From positions 65,560 to 129,559 of the forward strand of contig CACLAN010000002.1 in NCBI GenBank assembly GCA_902604905.1: a DNA stretch of 64,000 bases, in the 5' to 3' direction. Under the pieces are notes generated by a model. It was given only the letters and a program-made list of their open reading frames with translations, was not told the DNA's origin and did no database searches. The translations under genes were made by a program, and so were the position numbers. The DNA comes from an uncultured Alphaproteobacteria bacterium. GTDB lineage: Bacteria > Pseudomonadota > Alphaproteobacteria > HIMB59 > GCA-002718135. Positions 27,040 through 33,588 of this stretch are shown piece after piece; position 1 is the first letter of the stretch; each line of letters begins with the position of its first letter.

Positions 27040-28086
27040 GTGTTAGCTGTTGAAGTAAAAAATCTGACTCATGAGATTAATAATAAAAAAATCTTAAATA
27101 ATATTGAGTTCAATCTAACCAAGGATAGCATTTCTTGTATTCTTGGTCCTTCAGGAAGTGGAAAAACTACATTATTAAAACTTATTGCAGGTTTAGAAAA
27201 AGTACAATCTGGTGAAATCTTAATAAATGGCGAAGAGGTGAGTAGTACAAAAAAACATCTACCAACTGAAAAGAGAAAAATTGGATTTTTATTTCAAGAC
27301 TATGCTTTATTTCCACATTTAACAGTCAAGCAAAACTTAGAGTATCCCATAAATTATAAGAATTCAAATTATAGAATTGAGGATATTATTGATTTAATAA
27401 AACTTCCAAACTCTCTAAATAAATTTCCCCATGAGTTAAGTGGTGGCGAACAACAAAGAGTAGCATTAGCAAGATCAATTATTTCTCAACCTGATTTACT
27501 TTTATTAGATGAGCCATTTTCGAGTCTTGATTTGAATTTAAGAGAAGAGGTCAGGGATGATACTTTGCATTTATTACAAAAATCTAACATATCAGTGATT
27601 ATTGTTACTCACGATCCATTTGAAGCTATGTTCATTTCTAATCAAATAAATATTATGGATACCTCAGGATATATTATTCAATCTGGAAGCCCGGCAGAAT
27701 TATATAAAAATCCTAAAAATTCATATGTGACTGAATTTTTTGGTGAAACAAATAGGTTTCATGGAGTAGTTAATAACTCTTTTGTAGATACGCCAGTAGG
27801 AAAAATTAAAGCTCCAAATGAGCTTGAAAATACAAATGTAGAAATACATGTAAGACCACAAGGAGTAAAATTAAAGCAACAACCAACACCTGTTAATGGA
27901 ATAAAAGGTACTGTTATGGCCTCAAAATTAATGGGGTCTTTTAGTTTTGTTCATCTTTCAGTGCTTGATGACAATAATGAGGTTATTCATGTTCATAGTC
28001 ACATGCCTCCAGAATTTAATCCTCAACAATCATCTGCTGTCGAAATTGAGATAGATCAATCTCAAGCTTTTATTTTTAAAAATTAG
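27040..28086 (+). CDS. Fe(III) ABC transporter ATP-binding protein, FbpC-like (GTG start)
   Basis: GPSGSGKTTLL, LSGGEQQRVALARS, THDPFEA; adjacent to fbpB/fbpA-like genes. Confidence 0.85.
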   Translation: MLAVEVKNLTHEINNKKILNNIEFNLTKDSISCILGPSGSGKTTLLKLIAGLEKVQSGEILINGEEVSSTKKHLPTEKRKIGFLFQDYALFPHLTVKQNLEYPINYKNSNYRIEDIIDLIKLPNSLNKFPHELSGGEQQRVALARSIISQPDLLLLDEPFSSLDLNLREEVRDDTLHLLQKSNISVIIVTHDPFEAMFISNQINIMDTSGYIIQSGSPAELYKNPKNSYVTEFFGETNRFHGVVNNSFVDTPVGKIKAPNELENTNVEIHVRPQGVKLKQQPTPVNGIKGTVMASKLMGSFSFVHLSVLDDNNEVIHVHSHMPPEFNPQQSSAVEIEIDQSQAFIFKN

Positions 28087-29696
28087 TTGCTTTCTTTTTT
28101 TTGTGAAACTCTTTGAAGAGTTGTGTTTAAAAATATTACTGGACCAAGACCAACCACAATAATTATTAGAGCAGCAAATGATGATTCTTGTAAAAGTTCA
28201 TCTGATGCATATTGGTAGACATAAGTAGCTAAAGTTTCAAAATTAAAAGGTCTTAGCAGTAGGGTGATTGGAAGTTCTTTTAAAATATCAACAAAAACTA
28301 GAATACCTCCAATTAGGATATTGGTATAAATTAAGGGTAATACGATTACTCGAATTGTATTTAGAAAACCTTTTCCCATTGTTTGGGAAGCATCAACCGC
28401 ATTTGGATGAACTTTAAGTATTCCTGATCGCAGGGCAGCATTACCAACTGCTAAAAATCTAGTTGTGTAAGCAAAAATTAATACTAAGAAACCACCTGCA
28501 GCATAACCCATTTCAATATTAGTTATTGAGTTTAACCATCCAAAAAAGATAACAATGCCAACTGCAAGTATAGTACCTGGTAAAGCATAACCACATGAAG
28601 CTACAAAAATTAATCCTTTTTGAAAAGTATTTGATTTATAATTTGATACAATAATTAGAATTATAGAAACTAGCATGACAGTAGCAGCTCCTGCAAGTGC
28701 AAGCGATATACTTGTTGTTGCAGCAAATATAACTTCACTAAAATTAATTATAGAAAAACCACTTAAAACGAAATTTAAAAGAATGAGTACAGGAATTACA
28801 AATCCAAGAGTAATTGGGGTCAAACAAATTAAAAAACAAAGTAACTTTCCAGAAAATGAAATTGTTTCTGACTGAAGCATATTTTGACCACTACTTTTTT
28901 CAAAATACCTTTGTCTACGTCTTGCTAAATATTCAACAGTTAAAAGGACAACAACAAAAATAAATAAAACTGAAGATATTTGTGCTGCACCTGATAGACT
29001 GTTCATTCCCAACCAAACATTAAATACACCAAGGGTTAGAGTTTCTAGAGCAAAGTATTCAACTGTTCCAAAATCAGAAATTGTTTCCATTAATACAAGT
29101 GCTAGGCCAGCAAATATTCCTGGTCTTGCAAGTGGCAGAGCAACAGAAAAAAAACTGCTTCGTCCATAAATTAAACTTGTTTGATAAAAAGATAAGGGCA
29201 CGGTTAAAAAAGATGCTCTAGTCATCATGTAAATATATGGATAAAGAACACAAGACATAACTAAAATAGCCCCACCCATTGATCGTATTTCTGGGAACCA
29301 ATAATCTTTAACACTATTCCAGTTAAAAATTTCCCTTAGTAGTTTTTGTAATGGACCAGCGTATTCTAAAAAATCAGTATATGTATAAGCAATGATATAT
29401 GCAGGTACTGCAGCGGGTAATAATAGTGCCCACTCAAAAAAATTTTTACCAATAAAGTTATATCTTGTAACTACCCATGCTGAAGAAACACCAAAGATCA
29501 TACTTAGAATTCCTACCCCGATCATGAGCACAATTGTGTTGTAAACATATCTTGGCAGAACGGTTGAGAATAAATGTGGCCATAGACTGGTATCTCCTAA
29601 AAATGCGGAGTAAAAAATAGCAACTATTGGACAAATTATAAAAAGAGCAAGAAAAGTTGCTAACGTAGATGAGCTATTCCAATTATACAAATTCAC
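28083..29696 (-). CDS. Fe(III) ABC transporter permease, FbpB-like (fused two-half permease)
   Basis: Two copies of the binding-protein-dependent permease loop, 537 aa. Confidence 0.88.
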   Translation of the reverse strand: MNLYNWNSSSTLATFLALFIICPIVAIFYSAFLGDTSLWPHLFSTVLPRYVYNTIVLMIGVGILSMIFGVSSAWVVTRYNFIGKNFFEWALLLPAAVPAYIIAYTYTDFLEYAGPLQKLLREIFNWNSVKDYWFPEIRSMGGAILVMSCVLYPYIYMMTRASFLTVPLSFYQTSLIYGRSSFFSVALPLARPGIFAGLALVLMETISDFGTVEYFALETLTLGVFNVWLGMNSLSGAAQISSVLFIFVVVLLTVEYLARRRQRYFEKSSGQNMLQSETISFSGKLLCFLICLTPITLGFVIPVLILLNFVLSGFSIINFSEVIFAATTSISLALAGAATVMLVSIILIIVSNYKSNTFQKGLIFVASCGYALPGTILAVGIVIFFGWLNSITNIEMGYAAGGFLVLIFAYTTRFLAVGNAALRSGILKVHPNAVDASQTMGKGFLNTIRVIVLPLIYTNILIGGILVFVDILKELPITLLLRPFNFETLATYVYQYASDELLQESSFAALIIIVVGLGPVIFLNTTLQRVSQKKESN

Positions 29697-29707
29697 TTGG
29701 TTATAAA

Positions 29708-30727
29708 CTACCAGCCAACCCGATCAATTATCATTTGGGCATTAGGAGCAAGTTCTGCTATTTTTATTATTGGAAGTGTATCCTCTCTAAAGCTACCCCA
29801 GCTTTGTAGTTCTTCTCCAGGCTCAATTTTTTGATTTGCTGGATACTCAAAATTTATTTCTCCGTAGAGTTTTTGTGCTTTTTCACTTGTTAAAAACTCA
29901 AGTAACTTCTGAGCTTCTTCTTTGTTACTAGAATACTTAGCTACCCCTCCACCTGAAATATTTACATGAGCTCCTCTGTCACCCTCAGCTTGATTAGGAA
30001 AAACTAATCTCACACTTTCAGCCCATTTTCTTTGTTCAGGGTCTTCTGAGAATTTCAGTTTTCCATAATAATAATTATTTATAAGAGCAAGTTCACACTC
30101 CCCTTCATGAATAGCTTTAACCTGCGCTCTATCATTGCCTTGTGGTCTTTTGGCAAAATTAGCCACCATAGCCTTAGCCCATTTTTCAGCTTCATCTTCT
30201 CCAAGCGCTGCTAAAACTGATGCCATTATTCCACGGTTATAAACGTGACTTCCAGGTCTTGAGCAAATTTTTCCCTTCCACTTGGGGTCCGCCAAATCTT
30301 CAATTCTAGTTATTTCACCTTCTGCAATCTTCTCTTTGTGAACTACAATAACTCTAGCTCTTTTGGAAAGACCAAACCATGTATTTTCAGGACTCCTCAG
30401 GTAATTAGGAATATTATTTTGTAACTGTTTTGAATCTAATGAAGAAAGTAAATCAAGATCATCATAAATATACAGTCTTCCTATATCTACCGTAAGAATA
30501 ACATCTGCTGGACTATTTTCTCCCTCAGCCTTCAGTCTCTGGGCTAAGCCTTTTTTAGAATAAACAACATTTGTTTTAATGCCAGTTTCCTCAGTAAATA
30601 GTTCTAGAAAAGGGTTAATTAAGAATGGCTGTCTATGTGAATAAATATTTATCTCTTTTGCATTTAAATACGGAGTAAAAATAAATATAAAAAATAAAAA
30701 TACAAAATGTAATAAATTAGTTTTCAT
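29708..30727 (-). CDS. Fe(III) ABC transporter substrate-binding protein, FbpA-like
   Basis: INIYSHRQPFLINPFLELFTEETGI, NNYYYGKL tyrosine cluster, GDRGAHVNISGGGV. Confidence 0.9.
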   Translation of the reverse strand: MKTNLLHFVFLFFIFIFTPYLNAKEINIYSHRQPFLINPFLELFTEETGIKTNVVYSKKGLAQRLKAEGENSPADVILTVDIGRLYIYDDLDLLSSLDSKQLQNNIPNYLRSPENTWFGLSKRARVIVVHKEKIAEGEITRIEDLADPKWKGKICSRPGSHVYNRGIMASVLAALGEDEAEKWAKAMVANFAKRPQGNDRAQVKAIHEGECELALINNYYYGKLKFSEDPEQRKWAESVRLVFPNQAEGDRGAHVNISGGGVAKYSSNKEEAQKLLEFLTSEKAQKLYGEINFEYPANQKIEPGEELQSWGSFREDTLPIIKIAELAPNAQMIIDRVGW

Positions 30728-31727
30728 TTAACGATCTCCTTTTCAGATTAATTGAGCTAAATTTAAGTTTTATTTTTAAAAACTTTCTTAAAAAATAATT
30801 TTTAATTTCAATAAATGGATTTATGTATAAATCTTTTAAATTATGACTTTCATCTTTTTGGTTCTTTTCAATTCCAAGTTCTAAAGTTTCAAATTCAACT
30901 GAATGATGAAGTGATCTAAATAGATAATCCCAAATAGCTAAAGCTGCTCCAAAGTTCTTATCATGGTGTTCTCTTGCTATAGAGTGATGTAATTGATGTT
31001 GGGCTGGAGAAATGAATATATACTCTACCCATCTCCAATATCTAATTCCTACATGCGAGTGTCGTAAATTTGATCCTAGAATATTAAAAATAAATACAAA
31101 AATGTTTACTCCAAGAACTGTATATAAGCTTACTGAATCACCAAATAAAAAAATAAAAGAAGAAATACTTATTGCTTGTGTGATTGAACTTCTAAGAGAG
31201 AAAATTATTCCCTCTAAAGGATGAGTTCTAAAAACAGTCATTGGTGTTAAAACGGTAGCAGAATGGTGCACTTTATGAAGTGACCATAAAATTGGCCATT
31301 TGTGCATAAACCTATGAACTATATATTTGCTAAAATCATCAATAGTAAATTGAAAAGTAGTGAAAGCAATTATCACAAGAATTGGAAGGGCTTCTTTAAA
31401 CATTCCAACGCTTAACCAATCAATGGTGTGAAAATAAAAGTAAAGTGCTGTAGCAATTGTTAATTGAGTAATTAAAAATGGTGAAATAGTCATCATGATT
31501 AATTGGTTGATAAGAAAAACTTTGTAGTCGGATTTTGCTGACTTAGAAAAAAATATTTTTTTATCAAAAATTTTCTTAAATGCTGCAAAAAGAGAATATT
31601 TTCTTAATAAGATAAACCATAGAAATGCAATTAATATTGAGATTCCAATGTATGCTACAAAGACTCTTTTTTTTGGATCAATAAATTGATTACCAATATT
31701 AGATAAATATTCTGTTAAAATTTCCAT
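30717..31727 (-). CDS. Sterol desaturase / fatty-acid hydroxylase family membrane protein
   Basis: His clusters HRFMH, HKVHHS, HxLHH (HQLHHS). Confidence 0.88.
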   Translation of the reverse strand: MEILTEYLSNIGNQFIDPKKRVFVAYIGISILIAFLWFILLRKYSLFAAFKKIFDKKIFFSKSAKSDYKVFLINQLIMMTISPFLITQLTIATALYFYFHTIDWLSVGMFKEALPILVIIAFTTFQFTIDDFSKYIVHRFMHKWPILWSLHKVHHSATVLTPMTVFRTHPLEGIIFSLRSSITQAISISSFIFLFGDSVSLYTVLGVNIFVFIFNILGSNLRHSHVGIRYWRWVEYIFISPAQHQLHHSIAREHHDKNFGAALAIWDYLFRSLHHSVEFETLELGIEKNQKDESHNLKDLYINPFIEIKNYFLRKFLKIKLKFSSINLKRRSLNEN

Positions 31728-31739
31728 TCCAGTTTAGCA

Positions 31740-31763
31740 GTGTGGCTTTATACAAAGCCACAC
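31740..31763. terminator. 10-bp perfect inverted repeat between DUF4856 gene and sterol desaturase gene
   Basis: GTGTGGCTTT-ATAC-AAAGCCACAC; no strong flanking U-tract on the minus strand. Confidence 0.55.
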
Positions 31764-31775
31764 CATAATATTCAA

Positions 31776-33155
31776 TTAATCGTTTTCAGCTGAGTCAGAG
31801 CTTCCCATAGAACCAGCAAGCTCCTCCATTGCAGCTAATTGATCATTGTTTCTTGCAGTAATACCAAACTCATCAACCATCATTTTTTGAATTTTAAGCA
31901 TATGAAGTTTAAACTCACTCCACTCCTGTGCTTGGTCTTTTATGAAATTACCACTAGAGTCAACACCTACAACCTGTGATGCATTTAAGAGAACCGGGCC
32001 AAAACCCATCATTCGGTTCATCTTAACAGCAGTTTCTCCAAGATCTCCAGGACCACACTGTAGAGCTAATGCAAAACCTTTAAGTTCACCCCAATGTTTA
32101 GCATATTTTCTAAAAGCTTCTTCAGTATCACCATTGGCATCCATGATTGTTTCAAGTGCAACAATATCTTTGTAGGTAGATCCAGCATATTTAAAGACGG
32201 ACTCAGCAATAACTTTTTGCCAGTTATCTCTAATCACATCTCTTGCAGCTAACATGTCAGTTCTTTCAGAAAAATTTAAGTTTCTTCCATCAGCATCTCT
32301 AATAACTTTTCGTCCATCAATAAATGCTTGATTAATAGTTGCAAGATAATCAGTCTTACCACCTTTATCATAACTTGAAGCATAGTAAGCGTGTGCAAAA
32401 GTCATCTCAGAATATAGATCAACAACACCATCCCCGTTAAAGTCTGCAGATGCTAAATCTTTTTTCTTAGCAACATTATAGTTGTCCTCAGCTGAGAGAG
32501 TTAGTGCGTGAGCAGCAGATCCCCAATAACCAAATGCCTCATCCCAACTATGCTCCTTACCAGTGTAGTAAGCCCCTTCTTTATAAGGTGCATTATTTGG
32601 TTTTTGACCAATTTCCATTTTACTACCAAGATAACTGTTTACAGCTTGATTATAAAAAACAGCTCCCATAGCAAACTTTGATATTAATTGAGTGTAATCA
32701 AAACCAGTAGATGGATCAAAACCACCTTCAACTTGACTTGCCTTAAGCATCATATGTTCAATAGCTTCTGGACCTGTTAGATTACCCCAACCAGGAATAT
32801 ATCCTTTGTACATTTTACCCGAAAGGTTTCCACTACCTATTTCTGAAACCATGGTTTGTTTAACTGGAAAACCATCAGCAGATTTAGGAGCTATTATTTC
32901 TAAACCATCTTCTCCATTGTAATAGGACATCATTTTATCTAGATCACCTGTTTTCACTAAAGCTTTTAAACTGTCATGTAAAACTTGTCTGGCCATCTGA
33001 CCTGTATATTTCACTGAGTTTGTTTTATCGCCGTCATAACCTTTTAAAGTAATAGGGTAAGGTCCATAAACTTCTGGACCATGACCATCTGCAAAAGATT
33101 TAGAAAAGCTGAAAGAAAAAACTAAAGCAGTAGCAATGAGTAATATTTTTTTCAT
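31776..33155 (-). CDS. DUF4856-like secreted protein with EF-hand-like Asp loop
   Basis: Signal peptide; YTGQMARQVLHDSLKALV; DFNGDGVVDLYSE resembles a Ca-binding loop. Confidence 0.65.
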   Translation of the reverse strand: MKKILLIATALVFSFSFSKSFADGHGPEVYGPYPITLKGYDGDKTNSVKYTGQMARQVLHDSLKALVKTGDLDKMMSYYNGEDGLEIIAPKSADGFPVKQTMVSEIGSGNLSGKMYKGYIPGWGNLTGPEAIEHMMLKASQVEGGFDPSTGFDYTQLISKFAMGAVFYNQAVNSYLGSKMEIGQKPNNAPYKEGAYYTGKEHSWDEAFGYWGSAAHALTLSAEDNYNVAKKKDLASADFNGDGVVDLYSEMTFAHAYYASSYDKGGKTDYLATINQAFIDGRKVIRDADGRNLNFSERTDMLAARDVIRDNWQKVIAESVFKYAGSTYKDIVALETIMDANGDTEEAFRKYAKHWGELKGFALALQCGPGDLGETAVKMNRMMGFGPVLLNASQVVGVDSSGNFIKDQAQEWSEFKLHMLKIQKMMVDEFGITARNNDQLAAMEELAGSMGSSDSAEND

Positions 33156-33190
33156 GTATATTTTCCTTAATTGTAAATTTTTTCTTAGTT

Positions 33191-33265
33191 TAAGGGTGTG
33201 GAGATGAGTTGAAACTCGTTTGGTTAAGATGCGCCCTTACCTTTAAAAAGATTAATCATCTCCAC
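33191..33265 (-). ncRNA. Predicted pseudoknotted leader RNA / structured element
   Basis: GTGGAGATGA/TCATCTCCAC (33198-33207 with 33256-33265) crosses TAAGGG/CCCTTA (33191-33196 with 33234-33239). Confidence 0.45.
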
Positions 33266-33397
33266 GTCCTATTACTAAGGATCTATGATGCTTTTATAAT
33301 AATTTAAAAAACAGATTTTTTTATTTTATTTACCAAGTGTTTATAGGCTATATCGGATGTATTTAGATTTATTCTAATTTAAAGGTTTTTAAAAATA

Positions 33398-33454: not shown

Positions 33455-33588
33455 ATGGAACGGAAGTAGATTTGTTTATAGGTAAAAATTAATTTTTATG
33501 TCAAAAAAAATTATTTTGATATTATAAAATAGATATTTGAGAATTTTAGAACTATTCTAATTAAAAGTAATAGACTTTAATTCTAGGT

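Follow-up and report, generated by a model that had tools for sequence, protein, structure and literature searches.

A conserved two-hairpin leader, very probably a structured RNA, upstream of a ferric-iron transporter operon in one alphaproteobacterial lineage

Iron limits growth across much of the surface ocean. The 5' stem-loop of ompA shields the 5' end of its mRNA from RNase attack, and stabilising stem-loops of this type sit at the mRNA 5' end or close to it, have loops that are free to differ, and leave the ribosome-binding site behind them open. Other compact leader RNAs that precede a start codon are the pseudoknotted SAM-II and SAM-V riboswitches with their conserved ligand-binding loops, the latter in marine alphaproteobacteria (PMC2704228), and the rpsB, rpsL and ffh motifs of ‘Ca. 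Pelagibacter ubique’ were found by covariation (PMC2704228). A literature search for an iron leader RNA found none in PMC2704228 and none among the motifs listed by PMC2864571. For other alphaproteobacteria it is established that Irr exerts iron control at ICE-type boxes (PMC3413700). The leader described here precedes a ferric-iron operon in a 64,000-nucleotide stretch of contig CACLAN010000002.1 (the window), is very probably a conserved structured RNA, judging from comparative sequence analysis, and has apparently not been catalogued so far.

Two hairpins made up the element on the minus strand. Hairpin A (33267-33281), at the predicted mRNA 5' end, paired UCCU (33281-33278) with AGGA (33270-33267) around a 7-nt loop, and was followed, after a linker of one base, by hairpin P1 (33198-33265), in which GUGGAGAUGA (33265-33256) paired with UCAUCUCCAC (33207-33198) around a 48-nt loop. 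The whole element spanned about 33156 to 33284. The original prediction had placed it at 33191-33265, a segment that contained P1 and missed hairpin A, its most conserved part; the end of that segment was 35 nt from the ATG at 33155, in agreement with the distance of about 36 nt given before. The minimum free energy of 33185-33270 was -23.1 kcal/mol (z -3.6; none of 200 shuffles as low). When the intergenic region (460 nt, AT-rich) was shuffled 1000 times, 148 of the shuffles (some 15%) contained a perfect 10-bp stem, so the stem is not decisive alone and conservation has to decide.

The H-type pseudoknot that had been proposed was not conserved. Both of its crossing exact pairs were present in the sequence, the 10-bp pair GTGGAGATGA (33265-33256)/TCATCTCCAC (33207-33198), which is P1, and the 6-bp pair TAAGGG (33239-33234)/CCCTTA (33196-33191), both on the minus strand. 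The 6-bp pair was kept in 69% of close-relative cells, with one column broken in 9 of 14 sequences, and 70% of shuffled loop/tail pairs contained such a pair, as expected of chance. Two further hairpins of the original prediction fared differently: the inner GGT..AA/TT..ACC hairpin was kept in the window's clade, with G-U changes only, and was absent in the other clades, while GAGT-TTCA-ACTC competed with P1 and was missing from relatives. An alternative outer helix (33184-33279, minus strand), pairing CUUAGU (33279-33274) with ACUAAG (33189-33184), excludes hairpin A. This helix was clade-specific, being part of both the RNAalifold consensus and the lowest-energy fold of the window's clade (clade 1), where it replaced hairpin A; it was nearly invariant there, and thus without covariation, and was absent in clades 3 and 4.

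Loci were collected through the protein with a DUF4856 domain encoded by the first gene behind the leader, and the element was found in their upstream regions in several forms. The main alignment held 27 distinct relatives and was built with a model trained on clade 2 and its variant L074 only. Counted by cells, that is by sequences and not by events, P1 was paired in 99.5% and hairpin A in 88% of these 27 sequences. Changes on both sides of a pair were seen in 9 of 13 pairs overall and in 7 of 8 in P1. Such compensatory changes, the check suggested with the original prediction, support a conserved and probably structured leader RNA ahead of the DUF4856 gene, on the minus strand. Alignment A5, with more sequences including one wrong-strand row, raised the number to 11 of 13. 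In both alignments, 94.7-95.2% of the cells were paired and the covariation score was 0.47-0.53; shuffles scored 0.255, none of the 500 reaching the observed value, and slid controls 0.03-0.18. The fitting of both alignments, A5 and A6, was guided by the structure. When each clade was folded alone the arms were perfect or near-perfect complements, and P1 was fully paired in clade 1. The one-sided changes in clades 1 and 2 numbered five, all of them G-U and none A-C, and therefore selection on this RNA strand is favoured. P1 is looser in clade 3, since five unpaired variants were found there against two G-U pairs.

The P1 sequence was replaced between lineages. In clade 1 the element read AGAUCCUUAGUAAUAGGAC-GUGGAGAUGA..UCAUCUCCAC and in clade 2 AGAUUCUCAAUAAGAGGAC-GCGGGAGC..GCUCCCGC, with single variants in L074 (UGUGGGAGCUAA..) and L077 (UGUGGGAAAGAC..). 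A compact form of about 43 nt was AGAUUCUUAAUCAUAGAAC-GUGGAGAUA-UUUAU-UAUCUCCAC, and a fourth form with a quite different P1 (L172, L194-L197; in L172 GAGGGUUAUUGAU..AUCAAUAACCCUC) preceded a ferric-iron-binding protein gene. Two loci (L076 and L078) kept the iron box and were without a clear hairpin pair. Another locus without a model match (L045) had a strong 15-bp hairpin (z -4.4) in the place of the leader, some 150 bases ahead of the gene start and unrelated in sequence, hinting that P1 can be replaced by non-homologous hairpins. The P1 loop varied from 5 to about 50 nt, with wholly different sequences between lineages; it was 5 nt in clade 3, and about half of the carriers had a 5-nt loop.

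These loops bear on the riboswitch that had been suspected from the sequence. A metabolite or metal riboswitch would suit the leader position, the iron operon and the conserved loop GGUAAAGGCGCAUCUUAACC of clade 1, and is nevertheless very improbable: an unpaired core common to the lineages was absent, the clade 3 loop measured 5 nt, the pseudoknot was not conserved, and a scan for intrinsic terminators found none. A shared small-molecule pocket is unlikely because the loops range from 5 to about 50 nt and the P1 sequence is replaced between lineages. The failure to match the element to a described riboswitch class was borne out by Rfam, which gave no match at the gathering or E-value thresholds; SAM-II and SAM-V were not found at gathering score, and a SAM-II score of 13.7 bits, on the opposite strand and elsewhere, was at chance level.

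Hairpin A was the part with the highest sequence conservation, loop included (AGAUUCUYAAUMA.AGAAC type). In clade 1, AGAUCC..GGAC was identical in all 18 sequences (mean identity 1.0), as were the first 19 nt (18 of 18), with a mean identity of 0.69-0.72 upstream; clade 2 had UUCUC/GAGGA with a U-G pair throughout, and both sides of hairpin A pairs were altered between clades. The conservation of hairpin A and its loop next to a P1 with replaced sequence and loop would fit recognition of hairpin A by a regulatory protein, such as an RNA-binding sensor of iron or heme. This is rather unlikely, as no candidate binder was found, a CsrA-type GGA was present in clades 1 and 2 only, and an IRE-type CAGUGN loop was not seen by eye. 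A further step is improbable, in which the leader would found a new class of iron-responsive RNA on top of Irr, with hairpin A either binding the metal itself or being the target of a factor that senses iron or heme. Equally improbable is a reading in which P1 alone is RNA and the dyad TTCT..AGAA of hairpin A serves as a DNA operator at the start site: the short sequence-conserved dyad lies near a candidate -10, and paired changes also occur in DNA dyads, but the U-G pair of UUCUC/GAGGA was present in all of clade 2 and the spacing between hairpin A and P1 was 0-1 base in every clade but clade 4 (three bases or more), as expected of one RNA unit.

The Shine-Dalgarno region UUAAGGA (33164-33170, minus strand) was unpaired in most of the leader folds examined, and paired in some longer folds that included coding sequence. 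Its complement, UCCUUAG (33281-33275), stands at the 5' end, which makes for a candidate anti-Shine-Dalgarno pairing. A two-state translational switch could be built on this pairing, with the pyrimidine-rich 5' arm of hairpin A (UCCUUAG, UUCUC, UUCUU) pairing either with its own 3' arm, leaving the ribosome-binding site open, or with the Shine-Dalgarno sequence after P1, closing it; P1 would be a strut and the iron status or a protein would select the state. The complementarity extended over 7-8 bp in the window's clade (mean -8.4 kcal/mol), against 4-5 bp in clade 2, and of four clade 1 sequences tested, three had a closed state no more than about 2 kcal/mol from the ensemble. We consider this switch unlikely, if plausible in clade 1, since the pairing was weak in clades 3-6 (-2.8 to -3.9), hairpin A dominated the ensemble in clades 2 and 4, and non-cognate Shine-Dalgarno sequences paired about equally well, so that the match may reflect the Shine-Dalgarno motif alone. 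An upstream ORF (MINLFKGKGAS*) from an ATG inside P1 was rejected, relatives having lost the ATG (GAGATAAG) or the frame.

Upstream of the hairpins, a weak candidate -10 hexamer, TATTAT (33296-33301, minus strand), was recognised by reading the sequence and would place the transcription start at about 33288; a promoter scanner did not find a full sigma-70 site on this strand. From this candidate -10 we infer that the leader is transcribed. Two ICE/Irr-box-like palindromes were identified by pattern matching, TAGAATAAATCTAA (33363-33376) and TAGAATAGTTCTAA (33546-33559), both on the minus strand. The pattern TAGAATNNNTCTAA had five matches in the 1.0-Mb assembly, two of them before this operon and 170 nt apart, and nearly all relatives had an ICE-like palindrome ahead of the leader. 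The genus encodes an Irr-like homologue of the Fur family (Irr model E 1.2e-41; 141.8 bits against a cut-off of 170, or 150 for IrrA), and Irr may control this operon. In other lineages, Fur-type (GATAATGATTATCA-like) and GACT..AGTC dyads were found upstream of DUF4856 in place of the ICE-like box (L092, L093, L095-L097, L099-L101, L106, L108, L110, L111, L115 and L123-L125); different iron regulators would then act on one module.

The operon behind the leader comprised, all on the minus strand, genes for the DUF4856 protein (31776-33155; Pfam PF16148, E 1.7e-10), first in order, a fatty acid hydroxylase-family membrane protein (30717-31727; PF04116), a FutA/FbpA-like ferric-iron-binding protein (29708-30727; PDB 2pt1, iron transport protein, E 6.5e-87), third in order, and an ABC transporter permease (28083-29696; PF00528). 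A module with the same four members (28083-33155 in the window) was seen by eye in the Marinovum-type locus L120. The DUF4856 protein may be an unrecognised part of iron uptake; a search for a solved relative found none, and none of the papers searched names DUF4856.

The tie of the leader to DUF4856 proved incidental. The leader preceded the first gene of a ferric-iron operon in every locus inspected, and directly behind it many genomes had the gene for the ferric-iron-binding protein. The first gene was DUF4856 in the window and that of the FutA-like protein in L150, L152 and others, the leader lying between HSP20 and the operon in both arrangements; the compact form stood directly before the gene of a 337-aa ferric-iron-binding protein, after a methyltransferase gene and HSP20. 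Because the first genes differ at the same HSP20 locus, the leader belongs to the operon and not to DUF4856. In L172, L194-L196, L070 and L074 the leader was seen, by eye, after the end of a HupE/UreJ-like gene and not HSP20, so that the iron box and leader appear to travel with the operon as one unit.

A first covariance model (R1) found the element in about 45 further genomes, where it measured about 43 nt. A second (R2), trained without clades 1, 3 and 4, recovered those clades at E 0.001-0.11, and a third (R3) found one copy each in 82 of 102 genomes of the genus and in one genome of a sister genus. R3 gave zero matches in the neighbouring family (HIMB59-type genomes), and covariance model searches gave zero confirmed copies outside the family. 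One R3 match in a distant alphaproteobacterium of a class-wide sample (G431, E 0.008) lay inside a TssF-like (type VI secretion) gene and was taken as chance. A reading on the reverse strand was also rejected: R1 also scored the palindrome on the opposite strand, at 25-43 bits, but the leader position, the iron box and the G-U bias favour the minus strand.

Taken as a whole, the explanation that we prefer, a two-hairpin leader by which the iron-responsive transcript of a ferric-iron ABC-transporter operon is stabilised or tuned, falls a little short of an even chance; the role as mRNA stabiliser or translation tuner, on its own, is more tentative still. Transcription would probably start a few bases before AGAUCC, downstream of the Irr-type iron box, and the RNA would fold into the short 5'-terminal hairpin A, one base, the strong P1 and then an open ribosome-binding site. 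The leader would most likely act post-transcriptionally, by protecting the 5' end against RNase and leaving the ribosome-binding site accessible, and a protein bound to it might make it responsive to iron. The variable loops and the free Shine-Dalgarno region are consistent with such a mechanical role. A generic stabiliser, however, would not require the perfect sequence conservation of hairpin A, which leaves room for a bound protein.

That the leader was kept through genome streamlining, despite the exchange of its sequence and of the gene downstream, suggests post-transcriptional control of iron uptake besides Irr. If an iron-responsive RNA were true, some abundant streamlined ocean bacteria would have RNA-level control atop Irr. 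With the covariance model, the element can be located in metatranscriptomes. The leader resembles SAM-V and SAM-II in being a compact RNA before the start codon (SAM-V: PMC2704228), but it has neither a conserved pseudoknot nor a methionine or SAM gene behind it. With the rpsB, rpsL and ffh motifs it shares detection by covariation, streamlined marine hosts and one gene context each, whereas the genes are different and iron is not mentioned in the main text of PMC2704228. Like the ompA-type stem-loops, it places hairpins with variable loops at or near the mRNA 5' end and leaves the ribosome-binding site open after them; unlike them, it is confined to a single iron operon of a single lineage, the sequence of hairpin A is conserved and the stabilising effect is putative. 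As in Irr/ICE control (PMC3413700), an ICE-like palindrome and an Irr homologue accompany the leader, but those elements are DNA sites of transcriptional control, whereas the hairpins belong to the predicted transcript, downstream of these sites.
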